Shown here piece by piece: positions 2,503 through 59,206 of a stretch of 64,000 nucleotides of DNA (the first letter of the stretch is position 1; each line of letters begins with the position of its first letter). Location of the stretch: positions 124,001 to 188,000 of the forward strand of contig NZ_BSTR01000009.1 of assembly GCF_030269645.1 (NCBI RefSeq), written 5' to 3'. A program made the translations under genes and the position numbers. Below the pieces are notes generated by a model. That model ran no database searches. It was given only the letters and a program-made list of their open reading frames with translations, and was not told where the DNA came from. This DNA is from Actinokineospora sp. NBRC 105648 (GTDB lineage Bacteria > Actinomycetota > Actinomycetes > Mycobacteriales > Pseudonocardiaceae).

Positions 2503-2690
2503 CCCGCTACGGATGCTCGATCTAGTGGACTCGCTTCGTGTGGGGGGAGAGCACCGCTAAACTCGCCTGTGGTGGGGAATGCCCTTCACCCGCCCTTTTT
2601 TCGCCACCGCGGTGCTCTAGGGGCCCCGCGCGAAGCGAGTTCACTAGATCGAGCCCATGCTTGTAACCCGGGCAACGAAGACGGCAGCGC
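2503..2690. repeat. Palindromic element A (copy of element C, inverted)
   Basis: This fills most of the 458-base gap between psuG and the Spo0M-like gene. Arms of about 45 bases begin GCTCGATCTAGTG and face each other at 2515-2557 and 2608-2654. They enclose a core with GTGGTGGGG and CCCTTCACCC. The whole element, including flanks on both sides of the arms (CCGCTACGGATGCT on the left, CGGGCAACGAAGACGGC on the right), reappears in inverse orientation at 59018-59206 with scattered substitutions. No reading frame is convincing in it. It could act as a bidirectional terminator, a structured RNA or a miniature mobile element. Confidence 0.85.
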
Positions 2691-2756
2691 TCAAGTGAGT
2701 CCTAGATGCAGCCACGCCTGAAGCCCAGGCAACCCAAGACGCAAGCAGCCAGCAGC

Positions 2757-3542
2757 TCAGTCGAAGATCCCGCGCGGCGCCGCGACCCCCCGCAGCCACC
2801 CATCAATCTGCTTCTCCCAGTTGGTCCGCCCCAACGCCGAGTACTCCACCGCGAACGTCCCCAGGAACGACTGCCCCCGTCCGCCGAGCCCGCCGCCCTT
2901 GGCCACCCGGACCTTCTTCACCACGTCCAGCACCACCTGCACGTCGGTGGGCCGGGCCAGGAACGTCACCGACACCCCCGTGAACCCGTACGCCGGCGCG
3001 GCGAAGGTGATCTCCTGGAAGAACGGCAGCTGCTGGTCCACCCCGTCGAGCCGCTGCTTGACCAGGGTCGCCGAGCGGAAGGTGCAGCCGAGCCTGCTCA
3101 GCGCGTCCAGGACCCGGTGCTGGGCGGGCAGCGGTTCGATCGGCACCCCGTCGACGTCCTGCGGGTCCACCACGGACCCGGACAGGTCCAGGTTCGTCTG
3201 CAGTCCGACCGCCATGCCGGTGAGGTGCTTGCCGAACACCGAGGTGATCGGGGTCTCCCAGGGCAGCTGCACCTCGAACGGCACCGCGATCCGCGCGCCC
3301 GCGCGCACCAGCTCGCGCCCGGCCAGGTGCACGTTCTGGAACGGCAGGTCGGCGGTGCCCTCGCCGTCGACGACCCGGGCCAGCAGGGTCACCCCGAGGG
3401 ACTCGACCTCCTGGTCGACCTGCCCGCCGAGCAGCTGCACCTCACCGTGCAGCACCCCGCCGGGACGGACTGTCCGGTCGAGCAGCCGCGCGTCGACCTT
3501 GGCGCCACCCGCGCCGAAACTGGCCAGGACCTTCTGGAACAT
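2757..3542 (-). CDS. Spo0M-like sporulation-control protein
   Basis: A 261-residue protein starting at the ATG of MFQKVLASFGAGGAKVD; upstream in-frame residues look like intergenic sequence. The length and the layout match the SpoOM family: an N-terminal arrestin-like beta domain with 'RPGGVLHGEVQLLGG', then 'FEVQLPWETPITSVFG' and the C-terminal 'EYSALGRTNWEKQIDGWL'. In Bacillus Spo0M modulates sporulation; in actinomycetes the family is widespread and its role is unclear. It is probably cytosolic. It is transcribed divergently from the DUF3039 gene, with only 57 bases between the two starts. Confidence 0.85.
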   Translation of the reverse strand: MFQKVLASFGAGGAKVDARLLDRTVRPGGVLHGEVQLLGGQVDQEVESLGVTLLARVVDGEGTADLPFQNVHLAGRELVRAGARIAVPFEVQLPWETPITSVFGKHLTGMAVGLQTNLDLSGSVVDPQDVDGVPIEPLPAQHRVLDALSRLGCTFRSATLVKQRLDGVDQQLPFFQEITFAAPAYGFTGVSVTFLARPTDVQVVLDVVKKVRVAKGGGLGGRGQSFLGTFAVEYSALGRTNWEKQIDGWLRGVAAPRGIFD

Positions 3543-3599
3543 GGCGCGCATCCTGCCGGCAAGGGGGATCGTCCGCGCCGTTTGTTGCAGAATGGTGTG

Positions 3600-3842
3600 G
3601 TGAGCGCACCGACCCAGACTCTGCCGGAACTCGACACCCGGCCCGAGGGCACCGAGACCACGGGTGACGACACCCCGAAGATGTTCCACTACGTGCGGAA
3701 GAACAAGATCGCCGAGAGCGCTGTCATGGGCAACATGGTGGTCGCGCTCTGCGGCGAGGTCTTCCCGGTGACCAAGTCCCCCAAGCCGGGGTCCCCGGTC
3801 TGCCCCGACTGCAAGAAGATCTACGAATCCATGAAGGACTGA
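3600..3842 (+). CDS. DUF3039 family small protein
   Basis: An 80-residue protein from GTG at 3600 (an alternative GTG lies three bases earlier). The C-terminal half carries the conserved block HYVRKNKI...VALCGEVFPVTKSPKPGSPVCPDCKKIYESM. One cysteine (ALCG) and a CPDC pair suggest a small metal-binding fold. The N-terminus is acidic and probably disordered. The function of DUF3039 is unknown. A strong hairpin follows directly, so the gene is probably monocistronic. Confidence 0.85.
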   Translation: MSAPTQTLPELDTRPEGTETTGDDTPKMFHYVRKNKIAESAVMGNMVVALCGEVFPVTKSPKPGSPVCPDCKKIYESMKD

Positions 3843-3852
3843 GACGCGCGAA

Positions 3853-3881
3853 GGGCCACCCCGCGCGCGGCGGGGTGGCCC
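3853..3881. terminator. Hairpin terminator between convergent genes
   Basis: Perfect 12-base arms GGGCCACCCCGC and GCGGGGTGGCCC are separated by five bases. The hairpin lies 11 bases after the DUF3039 stop and 17 bases from the stop of the convergent RND gene, so it can serve both. It has no clear U-tract, which is common in high-GC actinobacteria. Confidence 0.75.
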
Positions 3882-3897
3882 TCGTCCCGGTCGGGCG

Positions 3898-6800
3898 CTA
3901 GACCGGCTGCAGCTCCGGCTCCTCGACCGGCACCGCGCCGCGCTTGGCCGCCCGCTTGGCGCGGCGGCGCTCCTTGGAGTTCTCCACCATGGTGTAGAGC
4001 GTCGGCACCAGCACCAGGGTCAGCAGCGTCGAGCTGATCAGCCCGCCGATGACCACCAGCGCCAGCGGCTGGCCGATGAACGAGCCCTGCCCGGTGAACC
4101 CGAGCGCCATCGGCAGCAGCGCGAAGATCGTCGCCGCCGCGGTCATCAGGATCGGCCGCAACCGCCTGCGGCCGCCCTCCACGACCGCCTCCCGCACGCC
4201 CATCCCCTCGGCCCGGTACTGGTTGACCAGGTCGATGAGCACGATCGCGTTGGTCACCACGATGCCCACCAGCATCAGCATGCCGATCAGCGCGGGCAGG
4301 CCGAGCGGCGTGCCGGTGAGCAGCAGCAGCCCGATCGCGCCGGTCGCCGCGAACGGGATCGACACCAGCAGGATCAGCGGCTGCACCAGGCTGCGGAAGG
4401 TCGCCACCATGATCAGGAAGACGATGGCGATCGCGGCCAGCATGGCCAGCCCGAGGTCGCCGAAGGTGTCCGCCTGGTCGGCGCTGACGCCGCCGATGGC
4501 GTAGCTCGCGCCGCCGGTCAGCGTCAGCTTGCCGAGCCTGCCGGTCAGGTCCTTGGTGACCGCGCCGAGGTCGCTGCCGGTGGCCTTGGCCGAGACGGTG
4601 GTGCCCCGGTTGCCGTCGGTGCGGTTGACCTGGGTGGGCCCGTCGACGGTGGTCACCTTCGCCACCTCGCCCAGGGTGACCCGGCCGGGCAGCGGCAGCG
4701 CCTTGAGCGCCGCCACGTCCGCGGGCGCGGTGCCCGTGCGCAGCACGACCTGCTGCCGGGTACCGCCGATGGGCAGCTCGGCGACCTGGGTGCCGCGGAT
4801 GGCCTGGGTGGCCAGCTGGCTGATCGTCTGGGTGCTCAGCCCGCGCGCCGCGGCGGCTTGCTGGTCGACCACGACCTCCACCCGCGGCGAGCTCTTGGCC
4901 AGGTCGCTGGTCGCCTCGGTGAGCCCGGGCGTGCCCGCGACGGTGTCCTGCACCAGCTTGGTCGCCGCGGCCAGGGCGGCCGCGTCCGGTGCGAACACGT
5001 CGACCTCGACCGCGTCGGAGGAGAACCCGGAGGCCTCGGCACCGATCTTGACCACCCCGGTGCCCGGCACCCCGGCCAGCCGGTCCTTGATCTTCTTCGT
5101 CAGCGCGTCCTTGTCCGTGCCCTCCTTGACGGTGGCGTTGACCTTGGTGTTCGCATCGCCCGACATGCCGAAGGCGGCGAGGCTGTCGTCGCTGCCCACG
5201 GTGGTCTGGAACACGGTGATCTCGTCGAGGTCGGCGAGCACGCCCTCGAGCTTCTCGGCCGCCTCGTCCCGGGTCGCCAGGCTGGTCCCCGGCGGCAGCT
5301 CCTGCGAGAGCTGCACGGCGGTGCCCTGGTCGTCGTCGATGAAGTTGGTCTTCAGGCCGCCGGCCAGCACGAGCGTGCCGCCGAAGATCAGCACCGCCAG
5401 GAACAGGGTCAGCCAGCGCCGGGTGGTGGCGAACCGCAGCACCGGCAGGTAGGCCCGCTGCAGCGGGCTGCGCCGCTCCTTCGCCAGCGCCGCCGCGCGC
5501 ACCGCCTCGGCCTCGGCCGGGTCGGCGGGGGTCGCGGGCGGCTTGAGGAACCAGTACGCCAGCACCGGCACGATGGTCAGCGACACCAGCAGCGAGGCCA
5601 GCAGGGCCACCGTGACAGTGATCGAGAACGGCCCGAACAGCTCACCGGCGATCCCGCCGACGAACGCGATCGGCAGGAACACCGCGACGGTGGTCAGCGT
5701 CGACGCGGTCACCGCGCCCGCCACCTCCCGGGTGCCCTCGAGCACCGCGCGCTGCTTGTCCTCGCCGTAACCGAGGTGGCGCTTGATGTTCTCCAGCACC
5801 ACGATCGAGTCGTCCACCACCCGGCCGATCGCGATGGTCAGCGCGCCCAGGGTGAGCAGGTTCAGCGACAGGTCGCCGGTCCACAGCGCCAGCAGCGCGA
5901 CCAGCACCGACAGCGGGATGGACACCGCGGTGACGATCGTGGAGCGCACCGAGAGCAGGAACAGCAGGATCACCAGCACCGCGAAGCCGAGGCCGAGCAG
6001 GCCCTCCGTGGTCAGCCCGCCGATCGCCTTCTCCACCTCGGGGCCCTGGTCGAACACCACGGTCAAGTCGGTGTCGGCCGCCTTCTCCAGGGCGGGGACC
6101 TTGTCCGCGACGGCCTTGGAGATCTCGACCGCGTTGCCGTCGCGGGTCATGGTGACCATGACGCCCAGCGTCGGCTTGCCGTCGGTCCGGGTGATCACCT
6201 GGCTGGGCGCCAGCCCCGGCTCCACCTGGGCCACATCGCCCAGCCGCACCGGCCTCGCGCCCGGCAGCACCAGCGCGCGCAGGTCGTCGACGGAGTTCAG
6301 CGGGCCGCCGACCTGCACCGCCAGCGACTTGCCGTCCTCGGTCACCCCGCCCGCGGGCACCGGCGTGCCCGCCGAGGCCAGCACCCCTGCCAGTGCCTGC
6401 GGGTCGACCCCGGCCGCGCCGAGCTTGGCGTAGTCCACGGTCACGTTCACCTGGGGCGAGCGGGTGCCGGTCAGCGACACGTCGCGGACCCCGGTGATGC
6501 CGCGCAGCGCGGGCACGACCTCGGTGTTGAGCCTGCCCGCGGCGGCCACCTCGTCGGTGCCCGAGGTCGCGGCGAGCACCACGACCGGGATCTGGTCGGT
6601 GCTGCCCTGCAGGACCGTCGGCTCGACGTTCTGCGGCAGCCGCGGCCGCAAGCGGTTGACCGCCTGCTGCAGCTGCCCGACGGCGGCGTCGACGTCGGTG
6701 CCGTAGACGAACTGCACCTGCACGGTGGCCGAGCCCTCGGCGGCGGTGGTGGTGATCTTCTCCACCCCGGCGACGCCGCGCAGGCTCGACTGGATCGGCT

Positions 6801-6996
6801 CGGCGACCTGGCTGTCGACGATGTCGGGCGAGGCGCCCGGGTAGGCCGCGACGACGACGGCGCCGGGCAGCTGGATGGACGGGAAGAGCTGTTGCTTGAG
6901 CGACGGCAGCGCGATGGCGCCGAAACCGATGATGAGCAGGCTGAGCAGCCCCACCAGGCTTCGGTTGCCCAGGCTGAGTCGGGCCAGCACGGACAT
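3898..6996 (-). CDS. RND (HAE1-type) efflux permease
   Basis: A 1032-residue inner-membrane transporter, the standard AcrB-like length, starting at the ATG of MSVLARLSLGNRSLVG. It has the duplicated RND layout: helix 1 at about 14-30, a large extracellular loop, helices 2-6 from about 332, helix 7 near 545, a second loop, then the last helices. The proton-relay pair VDDSIVVLEN lies at residues 394-403. 'FPSIQLPGAVVVAAYPGASPDIVDSQV' is typical of the HAE1 porter domain. No membrane-fusion or outer-membrane partner is adjacent, as expected in a monoderm. It probably exports drugs, lipids or metabolites by proton antiport; the substrate is unknown. Confidence 0.92.
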   Translation of the reverse strand: MSVLARLSLGNRSLVGLLSLLIIGFGAIALPSLKQQLFPSIQLPGAVVVAAYPGASPDIVDSQVAEPIQSSLRGVAGVEKITTTAAEGSATVQVQFVYGTDVDAAVGQLQQAVNRLRPRLPQNVEPTVLQGSTDQIPVVVLAATSGTDEVAAAGRLNTEVVPALRGITGVRDVSLTGTRSPQVNVTVDYAKLGAAGVDPQALAGVLASAGTPVPAGGVTEDGKSLAVQVGGPLNSVDDLRALVLPGARPVRLGDVAQVEPGLAPSQVITRTDGKPTLGVMVTMTRDGNAVEISKAVADKVPALEKAADTDLTVVFDQGPEVEKAIGGLTTEGLLGLGFAVLVILLFLLSVRSTIVTAVSIPLSVLVALLALWTGDLSLNLLTLGALTIAIGRVVDDSIVVLENIKRHLGYGEDKQRAVLEGTREVAGAVTASTLTTVAVFLPIAFVGGIAGELFGPFSITVTVALLASLLVSLTIVPVLAYWFLKPPATPADPAEAEAVRAAALAKERRSPLQRAYLPVLRFATTRRWLTLFLAVLIFGGTLVLAGGLKTNFIDDDQGTAVQLSQELPPGTSLATRDEAAEKLEGVLADLDEITVFQTTVGSDDSLAAFGMSGDANTKVNATVKEGTDKDALTKKIKDRLAGVPGTGVVKIGAEASGFSSDAVEVDVFAPDAAALAAATKLVQDTVAGTPGLTEATSDLAKSSPRVEVVVDQQAAAARGLSTQTISQLATQAIRGTQVAELPIGGTRQQVVLRTGTAPADVAALKALPLPGRVTLGEVAKVTTVDGPTQVNRTDGNRGTTVSAKATGSDLGAVTKDLTGRLGKLTLTGGASYAIGGVSADQADTFGDLGLAMLAAIAIVFLIMVATFRSLVQPLILLVSIPFAATGAIGLLLLTGTPLGLPALIGMLMLVGIVVTNAIVLIDLVNQYRAEGMGVREAVVEGGRRRLRPILMTAAATIFALLPMALGFTGQGSFIGQPLALVVIGGLISSTLLTLVLVPTLYTMVENSKERRRAKRAAKRGAVPVEEPELQPV

Positions 6997-7142
6997 GTGA
7001 CGTGGATCCCCTCGGTCGGACACCGGCGACCCCCGGGCGCCGTGAGGCGCCACATCGCCGGTGGAGTGGCCGAAGCCTGGCACACACGCCCTGAGACCGG
7101 ACTCAGCCCACGGTCCCGACTTAGGTCATACGAAAGGATGAT

Positions 7143-8204
7143 TCACGTGGGGCGGACGTCGGCCTGCGGTGACGCCTCGTGATCAGTGGGCGGCTCCGCT
7201 GGGCTTTCCGGGCGGTGCTCCCGGTCCTCGCTGGAGCGGATCTTCTCCGCCGCCCGCTCCATCTCCAGCCGCCGCCACCGCCTGCGCTGGCGGCGGGTCA
7301 TCTTGGCGGGCCAGAGCTCCTGGATGGCGGCGTTGAAGTAGGCGCCCATGACCACGGCCAGCCCGATGAAGAAGGCGAAGAGCAGGAACGCGATCGGGGT
7401 GGCCAGCGCGCCGTAGGTGTAGCCGGTGGTGGTGATCCAGCCGATGTAGAGCCGCAGCCCGATGCTGGAGAGCAGGAACAGCACCATCGCCAGCACCGCG
7501 CCGGGCAGGCCGCGGTGCCAGGGCAGCTTGCGCGGCAGCGCCACCTTGTAGAGCGTGGCCAGCGCGACCACCAGGATCACGCCGATCGCCGGGTAGTAGG
7601 TGATGTCCACCCAGCCGACCACCACCGGCTGCCAGGACACCGGGAAGATCTTGGGCAGCAGGTCCGGGCCGAGCGCGAGCACCGGCAGCCCGACGATCAG
7701 CAGCACCAGGCTGGCCACGTAGAGCAGCAGCGCGAAGATCCGCTGCCACACCTCGTGCCGGACCCCGTACTGACCGTGCGCCACGGTGATCGCGTCGACG
7801 AACGAGGACATCGCCGACGAGCCCGCCCACAGCGAGATCAGGAAGCCCACCGAGACGATCTCGCCGCGACCGACGGTGAGGATGTCGGAGACCGTGGGCT
7901 GGATGATCTGCGTCACCACGTTCTCGCTGAACGCCTTGCGCGAGAGGTCGAGGATGTCGGCCTGGACCGCGTTGATCACGTCCTGGCCGAACCACTCGGC
8001 CACGTAGCCCAGGCTGCCCAGCAGGCCCAGCAGCAGTGGCGGCAGCGAGAGCACCTGCCAGAAGGCCGCCTCGGCGGCCTCGGAGAAGATGTTGCCCTCC
8101 CACGCCTTGGACAGGGTGCGCTTGATCAGCCGCGACGGCACCCGGCCCGTGGCTGGTCCAGGTGTGCCGTCGCGGCCTGCGTGGGGTCTGGGCTGCGCGG
8201 TCAT
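7143..8204 (-). CDS. YihY/BrkB family inner-membrane protein
   Basis: About 353 residues from the ATG of MTAQPRPHAG; another ATG 21 bases upstream (8225) is also possible. A basic N-terminal stretch is followed by about six transmembrane helices (around residues 50, 115, 155, 190, 235 and 270) and a charged tail RRQRRRWRRLEMERAAEK. The diagnostic segment 'FWQVLSLPPLLLGLLGSLGYV' and 'LWAGSSAMSSFVDAIT' match YihY/BrkB proteins, once called ribonuclease BN. The molecular role is not established. Its start region faces the divergent helicase gene. Confidence 0.88.
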   Translation of the reverse strand: MTAQPRPHAGRDGTPGPATGRVPSRLIKRTLSKAWEGNIFSEAAEAAFWQVLSLPPLLLGLLGSLGYVAEWFGQDVINAVQADILDLSRKAFSENVVTQIIQPTVSDILTVGRGEIVSVGFLISLWAGSSAMSSFVDAITVAHGQYGVRHEVWQRIFALLLYVASLVLLIVGLPVLALGPDLLPKIFPVSWQPVVVGWVDITYYPAIGVILVVALATLYKVALPRKLPWHRGLPGAVLAMVLFLLSSIGLRLYIGWITTTGYTYGALATPIAFLLFAFFIGLAVVMGAYFNAAIQELWPAKMTRRQRRRWRRLEMERAAEKIRSSEDREHRPESPAEPPTDHEASPQADVRPT

Positions 8205-8445
8205 ACCTGGACAAGCATGGTCCATCCCAGCGGGATCGGCTCAACCGTCGGGTGTGATCCGACCCGGCGTGTCGCGGCTCGCGGCGATCTTGGCCGGGCG
8301 GGCGGTAGTCTCACGGACGCCCTCCACCGGGTCCGTACTCGCCGCGCACCGTCCGCCCGGCGGGAGCCGCTGGGGGCATCACCATGTCGGCGATCGTGCT
8401 TCGCCGATCGACGTGTTCGCGAGCCGAGAGGAGCTGGGGCATCCC

Positions 8446-10179
8446 GTGACCCGGGCCGAGGTGGAACCGGACTCCCAGGGCAAGGCCCCGGCGCGACCGC
8501 TGCGCGAGTGGCAGCGCCGGGCGCTGACGAGGTACCTGACCCGCCGCCCCAGGGACTTCCTGGCCGTGGCGACCCCCGGCGCGGGCAAGACGGTGTTCGG
8601 CCTGCGGGTGGCCGCCGAGCTGCTCGCCGACCGCACCGTCGAGTCGCTGACGATCGTCGCCCCGACCGAGCACCTCAAGTACCAGTGGGCGGCCTCGGCC
8701 AACGCCGCGGGCATCCCGATCGACCCCAACTTCACCAACTCGATGGGCGCCACCTCCCGCGACTACCGGGGCGTCGCGGTCACCTACGCCCAGGTCGCGG
8801 CCCACCCGACCCTGCACCGCGTGCGCACCGAGCAGCGCAAGACCCTGGTGATCCTCGACGAGGTCCACCACGGCGGCGACGCCAAGAGCTGGGGCGACGC
8901 CGTCCGCGAGGCGTTCACCCCGGCCGTGCGCAGGCTGGCCCTCACCGGCACCCCCTTCCGCAGCGACGACTCCGCCATCCCGTTCGTCGAGTACGAACCC
9001 GACGGCGCGGGCTTCCTCCGGAGCAAGGCCGACCACACCTACGGCTACGCCGACGCCCTGCGCGACGGCGTCGTCCGCCCGGTGATCTTCCTGGCCTACT
9101 CCGGCGAGGCCAGCTGGCGCACCAGCGCGGGCGAGGAGTTCACCGCGCGCCTGGGCGAGCCGCTCACCCCGGAGCAGACCGCCCGGGCCTGGCGCACCGC
9201 GCTGGACCCGTCGGGGGAGTGGATCCCGTCGGTCCTCTCGGCCGCCAACACCCGCCTGAACCAGGTCCGCCAACACATCCCCGACGCTGGCGGCCTGGTG
9301 ATCGCCTCGGACCACACCTCGGCCAAGGCCTACGCCGACATCCTGCGCACCGCGACCGGCGAAGAGCCGACCCTGGTCCTCTCCGACGACCCGAAGGCCT
9401 CCGGCCGGATCCAGGAGTTCTCCGACGGCACCTCCAAGTGGCTGGTAGCGGTCCGCATGGTCAGCGAGGGCGTCGACGTCCCCAGACTGGCGGTCGGCGT
9501 CTACGCGACGAGCGCGTCCACCCCGCTGTTCTTCGCCCAGGCCATCGGCCGCTATGTGCGAGTCCGCGTCCCCGGCGAGACCGCAAGCATCTTCCTGCCC
9601 TCGGTCCCGGTCTTGTTGGACTTGGCCAGCCAACTGGAAGCCGAACGGGACCACGTCCTGGGCAAACCCCACCGCGAAAAGGACGGCTGGGACGACGAAC
9701 TCCTGGCCGACGCCAACCGCACCAAGGACGAACTCGGCGAGGAAGAAAAGGCCTTCACCTCACTCGGCGCCTCAGCGGAGCTGGACCAGGTCATTTTCGA
9801 CGGCTCCTCATTCGGCACAGCGGCATTCGCGGGCACGGCAGAAGAAGAGGAATACCTAGGTCTCCCGGGCCTCTTAGCGCCCGACCAGGTCCGCGCACTG
9901 CTCAAGCAACGCCAAGACCAGCAACTGGAAGACCGCACCAGACGAGCCGCGGAACGGAAGCCGGACCAGCCCGCCCAGGCCAAACCCCAGTCGGTGCAAG
10001 AGCGCCTCAGCACCCTGCGCAAGGAACTCAACGCCCTGGTCGGCATGGCCCACCACCGCACCGGCAAACCCCACGGCCTGATCCACGGCGAACTCCGCAA
10101 GACCTGCGGCGGCCCCCCGACCGCGATGGCCACCGTGGACCAACTGGAAGAGCGCATCGCGACCCTGCGCTCCTGGTGA
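8446..10179 (+). CDS. DEAD/DEAH-box superfamily 2 helicase
   Basis: 577 residues from GTG at 8446, chosen because GGAG sits upstream at a plausible distance. Superfamily 2 motifs are in order: a Q-like segment PLREWQRRAL, Walker A TPGAGKT (43-49), DEVHH (138-142), LTGTPFR (166-172), and in the second RecA domain 'SEGVDVPRLAVGVY' with 'AIGRYVRVR' (motifs V and VI). This layout is like the ATPase part of type III restriction enzymes and XPB-like helicases, but no nuclease domain is visible. The C-terminal 170 residues are charged and lower in GC codon bias. It probably unwinds DNA; the pathway is unknown. Confidence 0.88.
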   Translation: MTRAEVEPDSQGKAPARPLREWQRRALTRYLTRRPRDFLAVATPGAGKTVFGLRVAAELLADRTVESLTIVAPTEHLKYQWAASANAAGIPIDPNFTNSMGATSRDYRGVAVTYAQVAAHPTLHRVRTEQRKTLVILDEVHHGGDAKSWGDAVREAFTPAVRRLALTGTPFRSDDSAIPFVEYEPDGAGFLRSKADHTYGYADALRDGVVRPVIFLAYSGEASWRTSAGEEFTARLGEPLTPEQTARAWRTALDPSGEWIPSVLSAANTRLNQVRQHIPDAGGLVIASDHTSAKAYADILRTATGEEPTLVLSDDPKASGRIQEFSDGTSKWLVAVRMVSEGVDVPRLAVGVYATSASTPLFFAQAIGRYVRVRVPGETASIFLPSVPVLLDLASQLEAERDHVLGKPHREKDGWDDELLADANRTKDELGEEEKAFTSLGASAELDQVIFDGSSFGTAAFAGTAEEEEYLGLPGLLAPDQVRALLKQRQDQQLEDRTRRAAERKPDQPAQAKPQSVQERLSTLRKELNALVGMAHHRTGKPHGLIHGELRKTCGGPPTAMATVDQLEERIATLRSW

Positions 10180-10235
10180 ACAGAAAACGCAACAATCCTC
10201 GCAGGCTTCTCCCCTGCGGAAGCCGGAAAAAAAAG

Positions 10236-10470
10236 GGCCGCCCCAATCCCCAAGCTGCCCCAATCCAAGCCACCCCGATCCTCAAGCGGCCTCAATTCAA
10301 GCGGCCCCATCCCCAAGTAGCCCCCATCCCCAAGCCGCGCCAACTCCACAGCCGCGCCAATCTTTAAACTCCGCCAACTCCACAGCCGCGCCAATCTTTA
10401 AACTCCGCCAACATCAAAGCCGCACCAATCCCTAAACTGTGCCAGCCGTAAAGCCGCGCCAATCCCCCTA
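10236..10470. repeat. Degenerate tandem repeat downstream of the helicase
   Basis: A low-complexity tract is built from units resembling 'CCGCGCCAATCCCCAAG'. It includes one exact tandem pair of 34 bases at 10338-10371 and 10372-10405, each beginning CGCCAACTCCACAGCCGCG and ending TTTAAACTC. It lies between the helicase stop and palindromic element B, and no gene is supported here. The remainder of the 733-base gap holds element B, about 200 bases of unremarkable sequence and the operator at 10830. Confidence 0.8.
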
Positions 10471-10473
10471 ACT

Positions 10474-10623
10474 GCTCGATTGGGTGGAGTGGTTTGTCTG
10501 GGGCCCCTAAAGAAATGAGGCGCTAAGCTGACCCGCGAGTGGGTGACTCCCTTCCCTACCCGCTCTACCCACCGCGCCTCATTTCTTTAGGGGCCCCAGA
10601 CAAACCACTCCACCCAATCGAGC
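10474..10623. repeat. Palindromic element B with perfect 50-base arms
   Basis: The arms at 10474-10523 and 10574-10623 are exact reverse complements over 50 bases, starting GCTCGATTGGGTGGAGTGG and containing GGGGCCCCTA. The 50-base centre contains an inner inverted pair GTGGGT/ACCCAC. The core (TTAGCG, CGGTGGG, GAAGGG on the complementary strand) and the arm landmarks GCTCGAT and GGGGCCCCTA are shared with elements A and C, although most of the arm sequence differs. Confidence 0.92.
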
Positions 10624-10848: not shown

Positions 10849-10912
10849 TCCCCCCACCACCGACGACCCGCCCGGGCCCAGGCGGCCGTCTGCGGCTACG
10901 AAAGGGACGACA

Positions 10913-50598: not shown

Positions 50599-50607
50599 CG
50601 GGCGGGT

Positions 50608-51315: not shown

Positions 51316-51410
51316 GCCCCGATCCTTGTCCACCCGGCACCTAGCACGGTTACGCTGATTGTGCACGGGTCGGAGTCGGGGCCGGCCCCCACCACAGGAG
51401 ACGACTGCGC

Positions 51411-51791
51411 ATGGGCACCAAGGGGGACGGTTATTGGCACCGTCTCGTCAAGCGGCTCACCACCGACGTGGACGAGCTCGACGCAGACGACCTGTCCTCG
51501 CACGCCCGGGAGCAGGGAGCGCAGCGCGCCTGTGACTGCCGGTCCGGCGAGGAGGTGACCGTCTTCGGGCGGTTACGCAGCGTGGAGCTGTGCCCGAGGG
51601 ACGCCGCGGCGACCCTGGAGGCGGAGTTGTTCGACGGGACCGAGGGCGTGACACTAGTGTGGCTCGGGCGCCGACGGATCCCGGGCATCGAGCCCGGTCG
51701 GACCGTCAAGGCCCAGGGCCGGATCGCGGTCAGGGACGGGCGCAAGGTGCTCTACAACCCGTACTACGAGCTGCAGCAGACGGCTCCATGA
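51411..51791 (+). CDS. OB-fold nucleic-acid-binding-like protein
   Basis: 126 residues. After a helical N-terminus the sequence has the OB pattern of a five-strand barrel ('EEVTVFGRLRSVELCPRDAAATLEAELFDGTEGVTLVWLGRRRIPGIEPGRTVKAQGRI'), as in tRNA-anticodon-type OB folds. It corresponds to Rv2694c. A GGAG lies about ten bases upstream of the ATG. The role is unknown. Confidence 0.87.
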   Translation: MGTKGDGYWHRLVKRLTTDVDELDADDLSSHAREQGAQRACDCRSGEEVTVFGRLRSVELCPRDAAATLEAELFDGTEGVTLVWLGRRRIPGIEPGRTVKAQGRIAVRDGRKVLYNPYYELQQTAP

Positions 51792-51804
51792 CGAAACCGG
51801 TGCC

Positions 51805-52572
51805 ATGACCCAACCGGCCGCGCAGGTCAACTCCCCGGGCGAGCCCGACGGCGAGGACCCGAAGACCGACCAGGACACCACCACACCGGCGGACAAACCC
51901 GAGCCCACGCTGCTCGAGCAGATGGGCGGCGTCAGCGGCCTGGTCTACTCGTCGGTGCCGGTCGTGGTGTTCGTGCTCGCCAACGCCTTCTTCGGCCTCA
52001 AGGTCGGCATCTGGAGCGCGGTCGGCAGCGCGGTGGCGATCACCGTGCTGCGGGTGGTCCGCAAGGAGCCGCTGCAGCCGGCCATCTCCGGCTTCTTCGG
52101 CGTGGCCATCGCGGCGTTCATCGCCAACCAGACCGGCTCGGCGAAGGGCTTCTTCCTCTTCGGCATCTGGACGAGCCTGATCTACGGCGGCGTCTTCGCG
52201 GTGTCGATCCTGCTCCGCTGGCCGCTGGTCGGCGTGGTGTGGTCGGCGCTCAACGGGCACGGCCAGGCCTGGCGCCAGGACAAGCGCTCGCGGGCCGCCT
52301 ACGACCTGGCGACGCTGACCTTCGTGCTGGTCTTCGCCGCCCGCTTCATCGTGCAGAAGTGGCTCTACGACGAGGACCTCACCGGTTGGCTGGCGTTCGC
52401 CCGGCTGGCCATGGGCTACCCGCTGTTCGCCATCGCCCTCGCGGTCACCGTGTGGGCGGTGCGCCGGGCGCAGGCCCGCCAGAACGACCTGGAGTCCGCG
52501 GCCGAGGCCGAGGAGACCGACGACGCGGCGGTCGAGGCCGCCCTGCGCCGCAAGTACGGCGAGACCGGCTGA
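51805..52572 (+). CDS. DUF3159 membrane protein
   Basis: 255 residues from the ATG of MTQPAAQVNSPGEP. A disordered 35-residue N-terminus precedes about six helices, with the DUF3159 features 'LLEQMGGVSGLVYSSVPVVVFVLAN', 'RWPLVGVVWS' and 'KRSRAAYDLATL'. It starts 13 bases after the OB-fold gene, probably in one transcript (Rv2693c counterpart). Function unknown. Confidence 0.92.
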   Translation: MTQPAAQVNSPGEPDGEDPKTDQDTTTPADKPEPTLLEQMGGVSGLVYSSVPVVVFVLANAFFGLKVGIWSAVGSAVAITVLRVVRKEPLQPAISGFFGVAIAAFIANQTGSAKGFFLFGIWTSLIYGGVFAVSILLRWPLVGVVWSALNGHGQAWRQDKRSRAAYDLATLTFVLVFAARFIVQKWLYDEDLTGWLAFARLAMGYPLFAIALAVTVWAVRRAQARQNDLESAAEAEETDDAAVEAALRRKYGETG

Positions 52573-52678
52573 GCGCGGAGCACGACCGGAGACCACCACC
52601 CGAGGCGGGCGGTGGTCTCCGGCGCGTGTGCGCCAACTGTCATCCCGGGGACATCCCCTTCCGGCCGATTTCGCGTAC

Positions 52679-52702
52679 ACTTACGGTTACGTAACCGTAA
52701 GT
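52679..52702. promoter_or_regulatory. Perfect 24-base palindrome before the desaturase gene
   Basis: The arms ACTTACGGTTAC and GTAACCGTAAGT are exact reverse complements with no spacer, centred about 54 bases upstream of the desaturase GTG. The size and perfection are typical of TetR-family operators, which control acyl-CoA desaturases in several bacteria. The regulator gene is not in the neighbourhood. Confidence 0.8.
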
Positions 52703-52744
52703 ACCGTCTTGGGGGAGACGCCGAAGAGCCGAGGTATCCCACAC

Positions 52745-53686
52745 GTGACGTCCACTCTCGAGAGTCCCCCCGTATCGGGCCCGAAACCGCTGCTCGGCCG
52801 CACGCGCACCACCGGTGAGCAGGTCGGGGTCTACCTGTTCGTGATCCTGCCGCTGGTCGCGCTGGTCGCGGCCGTGCCGTTCGCCTGGGGCTGGGGCCTG
52901 GGCTGGTCGGACGTGGTCATCGGACTGGTGTTCTTCACCATCAGCGGGCTCGGCGTGACCATCGGCTACCACCGGCTGTTCACCCACGGCTCGTTCCGCG
53001 CCAAGCGCGGGCTCAAGATCGCACTGGCCGCCGCGGGCGGCCTCTCGGCGCAGGGCTCGGTCATCGAGTGGGTCGCCGACCACCGCCGCCACCACGCCTT
53101 CTCCGACCGCGAGGGCGACCCGCACTCCCCGTGGCTGTTCGGCACCGGCCCGGTCGCGCTGGCCAAGGGCTTCTGGCACTCGCACATGGGCTGGCTGTTC
53201 AGCCGCGACCGCACCAACATCGAGCGCTTCGCCCCCGACCTGCAGGCCGACGCCGACCTGCGCAAGGTCGACCAGCTGTTCCCGGTGCTCACGGTGGTCT
53301 CGATGCTGGCGCCCGCGCTGATCGGCGGCCTGGTGACCTGGTCGTTCTGGGGCGCGCTGACCGCGTTCTTCTGGGCGGGCATCATCCGCGTCGCGGTCCT
53401 GCACCACGTGACCTGGTCGGTGAACTCGGTCTGCCACATGATCGGCGACCGCCCGTTCAAGTCCCGCGACCGCGCCTCGAACTTCTGGCCGCTGGCCATC
53501 CTCAGCTTCGGCGAGTCCTGGCACAACAGCCACCACGCCGACCCGACCTCGGCCCGGCACGGCGTCCTGCGCGGCCAGCTCGACATCTCGGCCCGGCTGA
53601 TCTGGCTGTTCGAGAAGGCGGGTTGGGCGACCAACGTCCGCTGGCCCACCCCCGAGCGCATCGCCAAGCTCCGCGTCGAGAGCTGA
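52745..53686 (+). CDS. Acyl-CoA / fatty-acid delta-9 desaturase
   Basis: 313 residues from GTG at 52745 (VTSTLESPPVSGPK). About four membrane helices and all three histidine boxes are present: HRLFTH (HxxxxH), DHRRHHAF (HxxHH) and WHNSHHADP (HxxHH). It is a membrane di-iron enzyme that introduces a double bond into fatty acyl chains, adjusting membrane fluidity. The palindrome at 52679 suggests repression tied to acyl-chain supply. The gene is an insertion relative to the mycobacterial gene order. Confidence 0.93.
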   Translation: MTSTLESPPVSGPKPLLGRTRTTGEQVGVYLFVILPLVALVAAVPFAWGWGLGWSDVVIGLVFFTISGLGVTIGYHRLFTHGSFRAKRGLKIALAAAGGLSAQGSVIEWVADHRRHHAFSDREGDPHSPWLFGTGPVALAKGFWHSHMGWLFSRDRTNIERFAPDLQADADLRKVDQLFPVLTVVSMLAPALIGGLVTWSFWGALTAFFWAGIIRVAVLHHVTWSVNSVCHMIGDRPFKSRDRASNFWPLAILSFGESWHNSHHADPTSARHGVLRGQLDISARLIWLFEKAGWATNVRWPTPERIAKLRVES

Positions 53687-53768
53687 CCCCGACCTCGCTC
53701 GGCTGCCCCTGGACCACGCCCCGGTCCAGGGGCAGTTCCGACTCAGCACCACCTTCGGGTGAAGCCCT

Positions 53769-53807
53769 CTAGCCCCTCTGGACGTTGACATCTAGGGGGG
53801 CTAGAAC
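53769..53807 (+). promoter_or_regulatory. Promoter/operator of the HicB-like gene
   Basis: TTGACA at 53785-53790 is flanked by the inverted pair CTAGCCCC (53769-53776) and GGGGCTAG (53797-53804), with a further CTAG at 53792. The arrangement, a -35 box inside a CTAG-type palindrome just before the start, suggests autorepression. A -10 box at normal spacing is not evident. Confidence 0.5.
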
Positions 53808-53813
53808 AGCCTG

Positions 53814-54242
53814 GTGGAGGGGACTTCCCATCGGGCGACCGCGAGGCGCGAGGGCAGGTTCTGGGTCGTGGAGGTCGACGGGGTGGGCGTGACCCAGGGC
53901 CGCACAGCCCAGGAGGCGCGTGCGATGGCTGGCGACCTGGTCGCCGCGATGCTCGACCGCCCGCTCGACCAGGTCCACGTCGACGTGGCCTTCGAGGTCG
54001 GCGGGATCGGCCCGGCCGAGGTCTCGGCGGTCAAGCGGGACCTCGAGGCGGCCGCGGCGGCCCAGGAGCGGGCGGCCACCGGCTCGCGGACCCTGGCGGC
54101 CAAGCTCCGCGCGGCCGGTCTCAGCGGGCGCGACGTCGCCGAGATCATGGGCGTCTCACCCCAGCGCGTATCGCAGCTCACCAACCGGCGCGCCACCACG
54201 ACGCGCCGGATCCAGCCCGCGGATCCAGACCCCCAGAGCTAG
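53814..54242 (+). CDS. HicB-like domain protein with C-terminal HTH
   Basis: 142 residues from GTG at 53814. The N-terminal beta-alpha unit 'GRFWVVEVDGVGVTQGRTAQEARAMAGDLVAAML' resembles HicB antitoxin folds. A helical spacer follows, then an HTH at the end ('LSGRDVAEIMGVSPQRVSQLTNR'). No HicA toxin gene adjoins it, so it is probably a solitary regulator, possibly binding its own promoter. It overlaps the end of the convergent TrkA-type gene by four bases. Confidence 0.7.
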   Translation: MEGTSHRATARREGRFWVVEVDGVGVTQGRTAQEARAMAGDLVAAMLDRPLDQVHVDVAFEVGGIGPAEVSAVKRDLEAAAAAQERAATGSRTLAAKLRAAGLSGRDVAEIMGVSPQRVSQLTNRRATTTRRIQPADPDPQS

Positions 54243-54895
54243 TGGCCCAGGGCGGCGCGGATCTCGTTCTCCACGTCGGCCGAGGCCACGAACAGCAGCT
54301 CGTCGCCGCCCTCGAGCGGGTCGTCGGCCTGCGGCACGATCACCCGGCCGCCGCGCAGGATGGTGACCAGGGCGGCGTCGCGGGGCAGCTTCACCTCGCG
54401 GACCGGGCGGCCCGCCCACGGGGTGTCGGCGGGCAGCGTCATCTCCACCAGGTTGGCCTGGCCCTGGCGCAGGGTCAGCAGCTGGACCAGCCCGCCGACG
54501 CTCACCGCCTCCTCGACCATCGCCGCGAGCACCCGCGGGGTCGACACCGCGACGTCCACGCCCCAGGCGCCGGTGAAGAGCCACTCGTTGGCCGGGTCGT
54601 TGACCCGGGCGACCACCCGGCGGACCGCGAAGACCGTCTTGGCCAGCAGCGAGACCACCAGGTTGACCTTGTCGTCGCCGGTGGCCGCGATGACGCAGTC
54701 GCACAGCTGCAGCCCGGCGTCCTCCAGCGAGGACAGCTCGCAGGCGTCGGCCAGCACCCACTCGGCCTGCTCGACGGTGTGCGGTTCGAACTGCTTGGCC
54801 TCGCGCTCGATCAGCATGACCTGGTGGTCGCCGCCGATCAGCTCGGCGGCGATCGAGCGGCCCACGGCGCCCGCTCCGGCGATGGCGACCCGCAT
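54239..54895 (-). CDS. ceoC: TrkA-family K+ uptake regulatory subunit (second copy)
   Basis: 218 residues: Rossmann NAD-binding RCK_N (VAIAGAGAVGRSIAAELIGGDHQVMLIERE, then DACELSSLEDAGL and CVIAATGDD) and RCK_C. Start ATG shares one base with the stop of the preceding gene. It gates K+ transport in response to nucleotides. The symbol follows the mycobacterial pair Rv2691/Rv2692. Confidence 0.9.
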   Translation of the reverse strand: MRVAIAGAGAVGRSIAAELIGGDHQVMLIEREAKQFEPHTVEQAEWVLADACELSSLEDAGLQLCDCVIAATGDDKVNLVVSLLAKTVFAVRRVVARVNDPANEWLFTGAWGVDVAVSTPRVLAAMVEEAVSVGGLVQLLTLRQGQANLVEMTLPADTPWAGRPVREVKLPRDAALVTILRGGRVIVPQADDPLEGGDELLFVASADVENEIRAALGH

Positions 54896-55560
54896 CAGTT
54901 CCCCTCCTCCGGCGCCTGCGCGGCGGCCGCTGTGACGTCGCTGACCGTGCCGGACAGGGCGGCGACGTAGACCTGGTCGTCGGCCTGGATCACGGTCTTG
55001 GCGGTGGGCAGCACGCCGGTGCCGAAGCGCATCACGAAGGCGACCCGGCAGCCGGTGGTGGCCTGGAACTCCTTGACCGTGTGGCCGATCCAGCCCTCGT
55101 TGACCGGGACCTCCAGCACCGCGACCTTGCCGGTGGGGTCCCGCCACGCCGAGGACACCCCGTCGGGCAGCAGGGTGCGCAGCAGCCGGTCGGTGGTCCA
55201 CGGCACGGTGGCCACCGTGGGGATGCCCAGGCGCTCGTAGACCTCGGCCCGCTTGGGGTCGTAGATGCGCGCCACGACGTGCTCGACGCCGAAGGTCTCC
55301 CGGGCCACCCGGGCGGAGATGATGTTGGAGTTGTCACCGCTGGAGACCGCGGCGAACGCGGCCGCGCGCTCCACCCCGGCCTCGATCATCACCTGCCGGT
55401 CGAAGCCGGTGCCGACGACCTGCTGACCGTGGAAGTCCGCGCCGAGCCTGCGGAAGGCCTGCGGATCCTTGTCGATCACGGCCACGGTGTGGTCGAGCCG
55501 CTCCAGCGCCGCGGCCATGGAGGCCCCGACGCGGCCGCAGCCCATGATCACCACGTGCAC
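54895..55560 (-). CDS. ceoB: TrkA-family K+ uptake regulatory subunit (first copy)
   Basis: 221 residues from GTG at 55560 (VHVVIMGCGRVGASMAAALERLDHTVAVIDKD), with GGAGG about seven bases upstream. RCK_N and RCK_C domains as in its partner. The two genes form one operon divergent from an APC-type transporter that they may control. Divergent spacing is about 130 bases. Confidence 0.92.
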   Translation of the reverse strand: MHVVIMGCGRVGASMAAALERLDHTVAVIDKDPQAFRRLGADFHGQQVVGTGFDRQVMIEAGVERAAAFAAVSSGDNSNIISARVARETFGVEHVVARIYDPKRAEVYERLGIPTVATVPWTTDRLLRTLLPDGVSSAWRDPTGKVAVLEVPVNEGWIGHTVKEFQATTGCRVAFVMRFGTGVLPTAKTVIQADDQVYVAALSGTVSDVTAAAAQAPEEGN

Positions 55561-55693
55561 GACCAGCCTCCTCGTTCCCGGTACGCGAGAATCGGACACC
55601 GCGTGACATGCGGTACCCGATCGTCGTGTGACACCGACGAACCTACCGGTGGTGGCGCGTAGCCGGTGATGCGACCGCCTACGCTGTGCGTCC

Positions 55694-57736
55694 GTGTCCA
55701 AGTTCTCCACGGCGGCGAAACGACTGGTGGTCGGGCGGCCGTTCCGCAGCGACCGGCTGGCGCACACGCTGCTGCCCAAGCGCATCGCGCTGCCGGTCTT
55801 CGCCTCCGACGCGATGTCCTCGGTGGCCTACGCGCCAGAAGAGATCTTCCTCATGCTGTCGGTGGCCGGGCTGTCGGCCTACACCTTCGCCCCGTGGGTC
55901 GGTCTGGTGGTCGTCCTGGTGATGCTCACCGTGGTGGCCAGCTACCGGCAGAACGTCCGCGCCTACCCCTCCGGGGGCGGTGACTACGAGGTCGCCACGG
56001 TCAACCTGGGCAAGCGGGCCGGGCTCACCGTGGCCAGCGCGCTGCTGGTGGACTACGTGCTGACCGTCGCGGTCTCGATCGCCTCCGCGGCGGCCAACAT
56101 CGGCTCGGCGATCCCGTTCGTGGCCACCCACAAGGTCGAGTTCGCGGTGGTGGCGATCATCGTGCTCACCGCGATCAACCTGCGTGGCATCCGCGAGTCC
56201 GGGGCCGCGTTCGCCGTCCCGACCTACGCGTTCATGGCCGGGATCATGCTGATGATCGGCTGGGGCCTCTTCCGCGGCCTGGTGCTCGGCCAGGACATGC
56301 CCGCCGAGAGCGCGGACCTGCAGATCAACGCCGAGCACGGCGACCTCGCCGGGTTGGCGCTGGTGTTCCTGATCCTGCGCGCGTTCTCCTCCGGCTGCGC
56401 CGCGCTCACCGGTGTCGAGGCGATCAGCAACGGCGTGCCCGCCTTCCGCAAGCCCAAGTCGAAGAACGCGGCCACCACGCTGCTGCTGATGGGCGGCATC
56501 GCGGTGGTGATGCTGATGGGCCTGATCGTGTTGGCCCAGCTCACCGACGTGCGCATCGCCGAGGACCCGGCGACCCAGCTGGTCAACGCGCCCGCGGGCT
56601 ACGAGCAGAAGACGATGGTCGCCCAGGTCGCCGAGGCGGTGTTCAGCGGTTTCCCGGCGGGCTTCTTCTTCATCACCATCGTCACCGCGCTGATCCTGGT
56701 GCTGGCCGCCAACACCGCGTTCAACGGCTTCCCGGTGCTCGGCTCGATCCTGGCCCAGGACCGCTACCTGCCCCGCCAGCTACACACCCGCGGCGACCGG
56801 CTGGCCTTCTCCAACGGCATCATCGGCCTGGCCGGGTTCGCCATCGTGCTGGTGATCGCCTTCGACGCCGAGGTCACCCGGCTGATCCAGCTCTACATCG
56901 TGGGCGTGTTCGTCTCGTTCACGATGAGCCAGACCGGCATGATCCGGCACTGGAACCGCAAGCTGGCGGGCGAGACCGACCCGGTCGAGCGCCGCCGGAT
57001 GCGCCGGGCGCAGGCGATCAACGCCTTCGGCCTGGCGATGACCGGTTCGGTGCTGGTGGTCGTGCTGATCACCAAGTTCCTGCTCGGCGCCTGGATCGCG
57101 ATCGCCGCCATGGCGGCCATCTACCTGCTGATGACCGCCATCCGCAGGCACTACGACCGGGTGGCCGACGAGCTGGCCAGGGCCGAGGGCGAGAGGGTCT
57201 TCGTGCTGCCGTCCCGGATCCACTCGATCGTGCTGGTCTCCAAGCTGCACCTGCCGACCCGGCGGGCGCTGGCCTACGCCCGGGCGACCCGGCCGGACGT
57301 GCTGGAGGCGATCACCGTCAACGTCGACGACGTCGACACCAAGCGGCTGGTGGCCGAGTGGGACAAGGAGGGCTTCTCGGTGCCGCTCAAGGTGATCGAG
57401 TCGCCCTACCGCGAGATCACCAAGCCGGTGCTGGACTACGTCAAGCGGGTCCGCACCGACAACCCGCGCGACGTGGTCACCGTGTTCATCCCGGAGTACG
57501 TGGTGGGCCACTGGTGGGAGCAGTTCCTGCACAACCAGAGCGCGCTGCGGCTCAAGGGCAGGCTGCTGTTCCAGCCGGGGGTGATGGTCACCAGCGTGCC
57601 CTGGCAGCTGGCGTCCTCGGAGAAGGTGGCCGAGCGCGACCTGGTCGCCCCCGGCGCCATCCGGCGCGGGCTCACCGGCAAGGACCGCGTGCCCGCCGAC
57701 TCGACCAAGGACCCGAACAAGGATGTGCGCAAGTGA
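55694..57736 (+). CDS. APC-superfamily transporter with cytosolic domain (KimA-like)
   Basis: 680 residues from GTG at 55694. About twelve helices are followed by a 180-residue cytosolic C-terminal domain from about 490. 'SDAMSSVAYAPEEIFLML' in helix 1 and 'YPSGGGDYEVA' match the KUP/KimA-type K+ importers and Rv2690c-like proteins. With the divergent TrkA-type genes it suggests a potassium uptake unit. Substrate assignment is inference. Confidence 0.88.
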   Translation: MSKFSTAAKRLVVGRPFRSDRLAHTLLPKRIALPVFASDAMSSVAYAPEEIFLMLSVAGLSAYTFAPWVGLVVVLVMLTVVASYRQNVRAYPSGGGDYEVATVNLGKRAGLTVASALLVDYVLTVAVSIASAAANIGSAIPFVATHKVEFAVVAIIVLTAINLRGIRESGAAFAVPTYAFMAGIMLMIGWGLFRGLVLGQDMPAESADLQINAEHGDLAGLALVFLILRAFSSGCAALTGVEAISNGVPAFRKPKSKNAATTLLLMGGIAVVMLMGLIVLAQLTDVRIAEDPATQLVNAPAGYEQKTMVAQVAEAVFSGFPAGFFFITIVTALILVLAANTAFNGFPVLGSILAQDRYLPRQLHTRGDRLAFSNGIIGLAGFAIVLVIAFDAEVTRLIQLYIVGVFVSFTMSQTGMIRHWNRKLAGETDPVERRRMRRAQAINAFGLAMTGSVLVVVLITKFLLGAWIAIAAMAAIYLLMTAIRRHYDRVADELARAEGERVFVLPSRIHSIVLVSKLHLPTRRALAYARATRPDVLEAITVNVDDVDTKRLVAEWDKEGFSVPLKVIESPYREITKPVLDYVKRVRTDNPRDVVTVFIPEYVVGHWWEQFLHNQSALRLKGRLLFQPGVMVTSVPWQLASSEKVAERDLVAPGAIRRGLTGKDRVPADSTKDPNKDVRK

Positions 57737-58968
57737 GTGACTGGACCGGCAAGCGGTTCGAGGTCGAGGTCGGCGCGGTCGCGCACGGCGGGCACTGCGT
57801 CGCCCGGGCGGAGGGCCGCGTGGTCTTCGTGCGGCACGCGCTGCCCGGCGAGCGGGTCGTCGTGGCGATCACCGAGGACAAGGGCGGCTCGTTCTGCCGC
57901 GGCGACGCGGTGGAGGTCCTGGTGGCCTCGCCGTCGCGGGTGGAGCCGCCGTGCCCGGTGGCCGTCCCCGGCGGCTGCGGCGGCTGCGACTGGCAGCACG
58001 CCGCGGCACCGGAGCAGCGGCGGCTCAAGGGGGTCGTGGTGGCCGAGCAGCTGAGCAGGCTGGCGGGTCTCACCTGGGACGTCGAGGTCGAGGAGCTGGC
58101 GGGCGGGCTGTCGCACTGGCGCACCCGCACCCGGCTCGCGGTCGACCGCGCGGGCCACGTCGGCTTCCGCGCCCACCGCAGCCACCGGGTGGTGCCGGTG
58201 GACGACTGCGTGATCGCCGCGCCGGGCACGGTGGACGTGCTGGCGGGCCGCGAGTGGACCCCGGGCGCGGAGCTGGAGGTGTCGGTCGACGCCACCGGGC
58301 GCACCCACGCCAGCGAGCTGCTGCCCGACAAGGGACGGCTGCGCAGCGGCAAACCGGTGCTCAAGCCGCACCGCGTGCTGGGCTCGTCGGTGGCCGTGGA
58401 ACAGGCCGCCCGCCGCGAGTGGCGCCTGGACGCGCACGGGTTCTGGCAGGTCCACCCGGACGCCGCCGACGTGCTGGCCGAGGTGGTCGAGCAGTGGTCG
58501 GGCGTCACCGAGGGCGACACCGCGTGGGACCTCTACGCCGGGGTGGGCCTGTTCGCCGCGGTGCTGGCGGGCCAGGTGGGTCCACAGGGGACGGTCGTGG
58601 CGGTGGAGTCGGCCCGCCGGGCAGCCGAGGACGGCGCGGAGAACCTCGCCGACCTGCCGCAGGTGCGGGTGTTCGCGGGCAAGGTCGAGGACGTGCTGGC
58701 CTCCGGCGACCTGCCCTCGCCCGAGGTGGTGGTGCTCGATCCGCCGCGGAAGGGGGCTGGGCGGGCTGTGGTCGAGGCGATCGTGGCTCGGACGCCTGAT
58801 CGGGTGGTCTACGTGGCCTGCGATCCGGCGGCGTTGGCGCGGGATGTGGCGTCGTTCGCGTCGCACGGGTATGAGTTGAGTCGGCTTCGGGCTTTCGACA
58901 CGTTTCCGATGACGCATCACGTGGAGTGTGTGGCGCTGTTGACGCGTATGTCTGGGGCTGTCGAGTAG
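57733..58968 (+). CDS. TrmA/RlmD-type 23S rRNA or tRNA uracil-5 methyltransferase
   Basis: 411 residues from GTG at 57733, overlapping the transporter stop by four bases. An N-terminal TRAM domain is followed by iron-sulfur-type cysteines (PPCPV...GGCGGCDWQH), the SAM-binding segment 'WDLYAGVGLFAAVLA', the DPPRKGAG motif, the catalytic cysteine in VYVACDPA and 'FPMTHHVECV'. It methylates uracil at C5 in RNA. The exact target cannot be told from sequence. Confidence 0.92.
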   Translation: MSDWTGKRFEVEVGAVAHGGHCVARAEGRVVFVRHALPGERVVVAITEDKGGSFCRGDAVEVLVASPSRVEPPCPVAVPGGCGGCDWQHAAAPEQRRLKGVVVAEQLSRLAGLTWDVEVEELAGGLSHWRTRTRLAVDRAGHVGFRAHRSHRVVPVDDCVIAAPGTVDVLAGREWTPGAELEVSVDATGRTHASELLPDKGRLRSGKPVLKPHRVLGSSVAVEQAARREWRLDAHGFWQVHPDAADVLAEVVEQWSGVTEGDTAWDLYAGVGLFAAVLAGQVGPQGTVVAVESARRAAEDGAENLADLPQVRVFAGKVEDVLASGDLPSPEVVVLDPPRKGAGRAVVEAIVARTPDRVVYVACDPAALARDVASFASHGYELSRLRAFDTFPMTHHVECVALLTRMSGAVE

Positions 58969-59017
58969 GGGCTGTTGAGGTTTCCCCGACTGCGGTCGCG
59001 AGGGTGGGCGCGTTTTC

Positions 59018-59206
59018 GCGTTGCCGTCTTCGTTGCCCGAGTTAAAGACGGGGGCTCGATCTAGTGAACTCACTTCGCGCGGGGCCCCTAGAGCACCGCG
59101 GTGGGGAAAAAGCGTGGGGTGAAGGGCATCCCCACCACAGGTCAAGTTTAGCGGTGCTCTCCCCCCACACGAAGCGAGTCCACTAGATCGAGCATCCGTA
59201 GCGGGG
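59018..59206. repeat. Palindromic element C (inverted copy of element A)
   Basis: The arms begin GCTCGATCTAGTGAACTCAC on the left and end GTCCACTAGATCGAGC on the right. The core contains CGGTGGGG, GGGGTGAAGGGCATCCCC and AGTTTAGCGG, with an inner stem GGTGGGG/CCCCACC. It is the reverse-oriented counterpart of 2503-2690, including flanks. It sits between the convergent methyltransferase and proline-rich genes. Confidence 0.88.

Follow-up and report, generated by a model that had tools for sequence, protein, structure and literature searches.

Palindromic intergenic repeats with covarying stems in Actinokineospora and other Pseudonocardiaceae

Three palindromes in the window and their predicted architecture

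The window analysed here is a stretch of 64,000 nucleotides from the 8.43 Mb genome of an Actinokineospora strain (G000), whose nearest named relative by dxs, among those listed, is A. globicatena (92%). Three palindromes, A, B and C, are found in it at the positions given by the original prediction, and C lies at an rlmD-like gene. The bounds first drawn for B proved accurate (10474–10623), whereas those for A and C were too wide and included flanks that are themselves repeated. The features are as follows, the RNA strand being the one on which the A.C mismatches described below read as G.U, and the scores being those of our covariance model R1.

2515–2654, RNA strand +: element A, type 1 (149.1 bits on + versus 61.3 on −)
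2515–2545/2624–2654, +: outer stem of A, from arm comparison
2548–2557/2609–2618, +: second stem of A, from arm comparison
2619–2623, +: purine bulge AGGGG of A
10474–10623, RNA strand probably + on the evidence of the core: element B, type 2, a symmetric variant (83.9 bits on + versus 70.6 on −)
10473–10523/10574–10624: perfect 51-bp arms of B, with GGGGCCCCTA in both
59054–59193, RNA strand −: element C, type 1 (155.4 bits on − versus 55.0 on +)
59054–59084/59163–59193, −: outer stem of C, from arm comparison
59090–59099/59151–59160, −: second stem of C, from arm comparison
59018–59053, +: repeated left flank of type-1 copies, absent from type-2 copies
59194–59242, +: right-hand flank, likewise repeated in type-1 copies and starting with A, which corresponds to T at position −1 on the RNA strand

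As had been proposed, C is nearly a copy of A in the reverse orientation (92% identity), and each of the two has a separate, perfect second stem of 10 bp. The outer stem of A measures 31 nt and is 90% Watson-Crick complementary; that of C measures 37 nt and is 84% complementary. The arms of B are indeed perfectly self-complementary. The outer arms of all three elements were said to contain a common motif, and this holds for both arms of B; in A and C, GGGGCCCCTA occurs in one arm only, and the element therefore has a direction. Among 23 distinct elements, B alone was matched on both strands. Single-stranded DNA folding was run on the strand that has GGGGCCCC first (the + strand for B, which has GGGGCCCC in both arms); A, B and C gave z-scores of −6.5, −18.5 and −6.6, beating all 200 shuffles each time. 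The 56-kb inverted repeat formed by A and C, to which attention had been drawn, is nothing special in a genome with 63 full copies in 1.64 Mb. Around type-1 copies in G000 lie short degenerate repeat arrays built from TTGCCGTCTTCGTTGCC and CCGCTGCGGTACCAGCGGGGTCGG units, for example at 2655–2720 and 59206–59340 of the window.

The elements are 140–150 bp long and follow a plan that is common to those of other genera. An outer stem (stem 1) of 31–37 bp in Actinokineospora, shorter in other genera, is followed by a second stem (stem 2) and then by a variable apical hairpin. An unpaired purine run, usually AGGGG, with the variants AGAGG, AAGGG, GGGGU and AGGGU, adjoins CCCC in one arm only. The predicted order on the RNA strand, most likely that of a transcript, would be 5'-stem 1-GG-stem 2-apical hairpin-stem 2'-AGGGG-CCCC-rest of stem 1. 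In three elements from two other genera (L261, L276 and L262), the bulge is AGAGG where the neighboring stem is GGAG/CUCC, which hints at either a tertiary contact or a single shared ancestral change. One 63-nt copy (L344:5765–5827) is a bare hairpin without the core.

Copy number and distribution

Further copies, for which the original prediction had suggested a search, are numerous both in G000 and in its relatives. A DNA search of G000 returned 301 first-look candidates, 40 of which were scored, and R1 identified 63 full copies in 1,639,838 bases of this genome. By extrapolation, G000 would contain about 324 copies, which at 140 bp each amount to about 0.5% of the genome, and a second Actinokineospora genome (G005) contains about 440. 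The copies in G000 are of two types. Those of type 1, including A and C, have flanks that are repeated on both sides, whereas in those of type 2, including B, the second stem differs and the flanks are unlike type 1 and mostly unlike one another. For this reason the palindrome itself is likely to be the unit, with the type-1 copies lying within larger repeated intergenic arrays.

At an E-value of 0.01, R1 matches were found in all 16 Actinokineospora genomes, three of which have at least 150 matches each, whereas G012 has only three weak ones, the best of them (L217) being a palindrome of 81 nt, possibly unrelated to the family. The patchy presence within the genus suggested by the DNA search, which matched 7 of 41 genomes including the source, was thus an effect of sensitivity. 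Across the Pseudonocardiaceae, 16 of 120 genomes match R1 at 1e-5, representing 8 of 46 genera with Actinokineospora included, and 15 of the 16 have at least two matches. Umezawaea endophytica has one element about 0.4 kb from dxs, with new arms on the same plan. A shorter model, R2, was run on 397 genomes of the order and matched 13, namely 12 from Pseudonocardiaceae and, weakly, one from outside the family (G232), and among 396 genomes of the phylum it matched the source genome alone; nine candidates were scored per genome in both scans, so that misses are likely and absence is soft. The remaining 15 genomes of the genus have no R1 match within 1.5 kb of the rlmD-like gene at which C lies; the sequence downstream of this gene in G004 is the same as in the A. 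globicatena strain. A loose motif test had given a signal at four orthologous loci besides the element's own, and R1 finds none there. A blastn search of C with its flanks against plasmid and phage records gave no match.

The family was thought to be undescribed, and nothing in our searches contradicts this. No Rfam family (Rfam 15) was matched at the gathering score in the window or in the loci of six relatives, the matches below gathering being mostly miRNA hairpins, and no report of the family was found in the titles and abstracts of the open-licence literature. A second family of palindromes was also observed in G000, at L031:14993–15051 (contig C3), at C3:147, 326478 and 373242, and at sites in C1, C8, C9 and C11. 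It has 25-bp stems, a loop that is mostly GGGAAAGAT and fixed ends, while the inner ~12 bp vary by copy and are perfectly paired in 11 of 11 (1.64 Mb searched with the inner core fixed). One copy was scanned against Rfam and matched 0 families at gathering.

Covariation and strand polarity

The main alignment comprises 39 elements from seven species, B being left out. Read on the strand with GGGGCCCCTA on the left, 90.4% of 1506 cells are paired, and the cells that are not Watson-Crick comprise 133 A.C, 5 G.T and 11 other mismatches, with A.C occurring in 17 columns and G.T in three. On the opposite strand, the RNA strand, A.C becomes G.U and 98.6% of 1622 cells are paired. The GGGGCCCCTA-left strand was rejected as the functional one because its mismatches are A.C and turn into G.U when the opposite strand is read. 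Of the 47 pairs, 29 have changed on both sides, several columns carry G.C, G.U and A.U states, and none of 500 shuffles reaches any of the five measures scored on the RNA strand; controls with the pairing slid along the alignment were 34.6–44.6% paired.

The same polarity is seen within single genomes. On the RNA strand, the 63 copies of G000 show 115 G.U, 4 A.C and 16 other mismatches, and 47 copies of G005 (one truncated) show 90 G.U, 4 A.C and 42 other mismatches. The bias is the same in either genomic orientation, and it persists when only the 13 G005 copies without T at position −1 are counted, so it does not reflect a mutation bias of the direction of transcription or replication.

Covariation extends across genera. 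In an R2 alignment of 31 elements, 86.9% of 716 cells are paired and 173 cells are changed on both sides versus 67 in shuffles. Double changes occur in 20 pairs versus 17.3 (reached by 8 of 500 shuffles), and there are 55 further pair types versus 49.2 (reached by 7 of 500). The G.U to A.C count was 12:2 with 17 other mismatches in further elements (29 of 30 scored, outer stem only), and 3:1 with 13 other mismatches in the 19 of these that come from other genera; a cruder count gave 19:5. The polarity is thus established for the few species of Actinokineospora that were covered, not beyond the genus.

These data strongly support the central claim of the original prediction, that pairing itself is maintained, both in the genus and across genera. 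Since the G.U excess is confined to one strand, selection for pairing within the genus acts on one strand, whose polarity is fixed, and the ratio of G.U to A.C, which exceeds 20 and fits RNA better than DNA, makes this strand most likely RNA rather than single-stranded DNA; G.T pairs also form in DNA hairpins. Of the three meanings that had been offered, namely structured RNA, hairpin-replicating DNA and a dedicated terminator, the first has the strongest support, which comes from the G.U bias seen on one strand in Actinokineospora. It is very improbable that the arms are kept matched by template switching alone, with no selection. Such a process would suit the perfect 51-bp arms of B and the perfect 31-bp arms seen in 10 of the 63 G000 copies, but it is already disfavored by the G.U test within the genus, as an excess of G.U relative to A.C on a single strand would not follow from it, and the purine bulge stays asymmetric.

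Genomic context, insertion and nature of the family

Genes were called with a simple composition-based method, so that the contexts given here are approximate, and the counts exclude one of the 63 copies, which lies at a contig edge. In G000, 26 of the 47 element-bearing gaps are convergent, compared with 80 of all 410 gaps of at least 150 bp (p 4e-9), and in G005 the corresponding figures are 14 of 23 and 43 of 230 (p 2e-6). Divergent gaps make up 3 of 47 element-bearing gaps versus 138 of 410 in G000, and 1 of 23 versus 65 of 230 in G005. The gap that holds C was called tandem; the segment 60137–60631, conserved in relatives, lies within a 379-aa minus-strand ORF that would make it convergent. 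In all 11 pairs of elements found in convergent G000 gaps the RNA strands point inward, whereas in tandem gaps of G000 the RNA strand is sense to the neighboring gene in 13 cases versus antisense in 9, and the clusters of G005 have mixed orientations. Sense orientation to the upstream gene was therefore rejected as a rule, since it fits the G000 pairs but fails in tandem gaps and in G005. Four gaps of G005 (L316, L322, L330 and L347) hold four or five elements each, spaced about 240–380 bp apart with changes of orientation.

These preferences bear on the possibility that the family is a dispersed terminator or mRNA 3'-end hairpin, selected by the host and not selfish. The use of convergent gaps, the avoidance of divergent ones and the inward-pointing pairs would all suit such a role, as would the core hairpin followed by at least three U residues, which 14 of 27 representatives have on the RNA strand and 1 of 27 on the other. 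However, orientation follows no rule in the tandem gaps or in G005, a terminator scan at A, B and C gave nothing above shuffles, and none of the other 15 genomes of the genus has a counterpart of C at the rlmD-like gene. The case for a dedicated terminator is consequently weak, and we judge a host-selected origin of this kind rather improbable, while a terminator or 3'-end role is possible.

In G000, 62 of 63 copies have T immediately before the element (position −1) on the RNA strand, the T content of the 1.64 Mb being 15%; this is the only fixed base, position −2 being A in 32, G in 24 and C in 7 of the 63. In G005, 34 of 47 copies have T at −1; of the 13 that do not, 12 carry A at +1 and look flipped between fixed flanks that keep the T. 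The flanks of type-1 copies are shared by descent, and the flank counts for these copies are therefore not independent. No target-site duplication was detected for lengths k of 2–6 among the 63 G000 copies, and in G005 the numbers were 6 observed versus 3.2 expected for k of 2, 1 versus 0.9 for k of 3, and 0 for k of 4–6. An empty site in G000 (C3:330873–330951) was aligned with the flanks of pair members after these had been joined; three of the alignments are free of gaps, at 78–79% identity, at which level the junction is uncertain by a base or two, and loss of the element is as possible as gain. Four candidate empty sites in G005 gave no clean alignment at the junction.

It is quite improbable that the elements are classical MITEs of a DDE transposon, in which the arms would be terminal inverted repeats and their pairing a by-product of symmetric binding sites. 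Despite the long inverted arms, high copy number and presence/absence, there is no target duplication, covariation continues into the second stem, about 40 bp inside, and double-stranded sites would provide no reason for a G.U bias on one strand.

A single-stranded DNA element of the REP/REPIN kind, in which folded DNA would be cut and joined by a hairpin-recognizing enzyme (HUH or other), is possible and deserves to be taken seriously, at clearly less than even probability. It would suit the lack of target duplication, the fixed base beside one end, the fixed polarity of the hairpin, and the tandem and inverted clusters, which resemble REPIN arrays (PMC3116915). Against it stand the preference for G.U noted above, the lack of a GTAG-type foot, and the lack of a replication-strand bias in 150 scored G005 copies (at most 63 versus 87, with origins tried in 50-kb steps). 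Furthermore, Y1 (PF01797, RAYT/TnpA-REP) was found in 2 of 16 genomes of the genus (G006 and G014) and not in the other 14, G000 and G005 among them. The strand and Y1 results also make hairpin-replicating DNA, as originally proposed, less probable, though possible.

Two other protein families were searched for. RVT_1 (PF00078) is present in three of the 16 genomes, including G000, and missing from 13, among them G005 and also G012, which has weak R1 matches only. IS110 (PF01548) is present in seven, again including G000, and absent from nine carriers, each with at least 13 R1 matches. Each of the three families is thus missing from several high-copy genomes. In a comparison of ORFs next to the elements (54 loci, 1.5-kb flanks), the matches listed were attributed to repeated non-coding flanks, and no autonomous copy was recognized among them.

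The explanation that we favor, with modest confidence, is that these palindromes make up a family of miniature, non-autonomous mobile elements of the Pseudonocardiaceae, and that selection, in Actinokineospora at least, acts on a single folded strand, which is most likely a transcript. Copies would spread by insertion, in trans, through a putative enzyme that recognizes the fold; the RNA strand would be transcribed; and convergent gaps may be where hairpins are tolerated or useful, through 3'-end protection or termination. A more specific version, that a putative enzyme recognizes the fold of the transcript, with its purine bulge beside CCCC, and that spread takes place via RNA, in a SINE-like or guide-like manner and not via DNA ends, we consider unlikely. 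The bridge RNA of IS110, group II RNA and retron RNA are structured RNAs tied to mobility, and a similar tie is conceivable here; unlike those systems, the present family occurs in genomes without IS110 (9 of 16) or RVT_1 (13 of 16). Integron attC sites, in which structure is kept while sequence varies and one strand is active, offer a likeness in both respects, structure kept despite sequence change and one favored strand.

Closer parallels are found among bacterial repeats, as described in the sources cited. REPINs show compensatory stem changes and tandem clusters (PMC3116915), and for GTAG REPs the authors read the presence of G.T pairs as suggesting that many of these repeats could function as RNA (PMC3733652). 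REPINs and GTAG REPs with their RAYTs resemble the present family in being high-copy intergenic hairpins in tandem or inverted clusters, with compensatory changes and G.T pairs in the stem (PMC3116915, PMC3733652, PMC6006769). Unlike REPINs, the Actinokineospora elements are 140–150 nt long with two stems and a purine bulge, and they have neither a GT[AG]G foot nor, in 14 of 16 genomes, a Y1 match. The string 'actinobacter' has 0 occurrences in PMC3733652. ERIC/IRU, YPAL and NEMIS are likewise repeats of 100–200 bp with long stem-loop transcripts, some of which act on neighboring mRNA (PMC2229807), whereas the transcript here is only predicted. These stem-loop repeats have target-site duplications, ERIC and NEMIS with 5'-TA-3' termini (PMC2229807), and the Actinokineospora elements have no such duplication. 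The family behaves like a miniature element of the REPIN or ERIC type, but without the Y1 association, GTAG foot or target duplication that mark those groups.

The palindromes of the window belong to a large family of structured repeats that spans at least eight genera of Pseudonocardiaceae and has no Rfam match. The family points to a mobilizing activity outside the three protein families tested, and it provides a natural data set in which selection on a folded single strand can be set against selection on DNA ends in bacterial palindromes.
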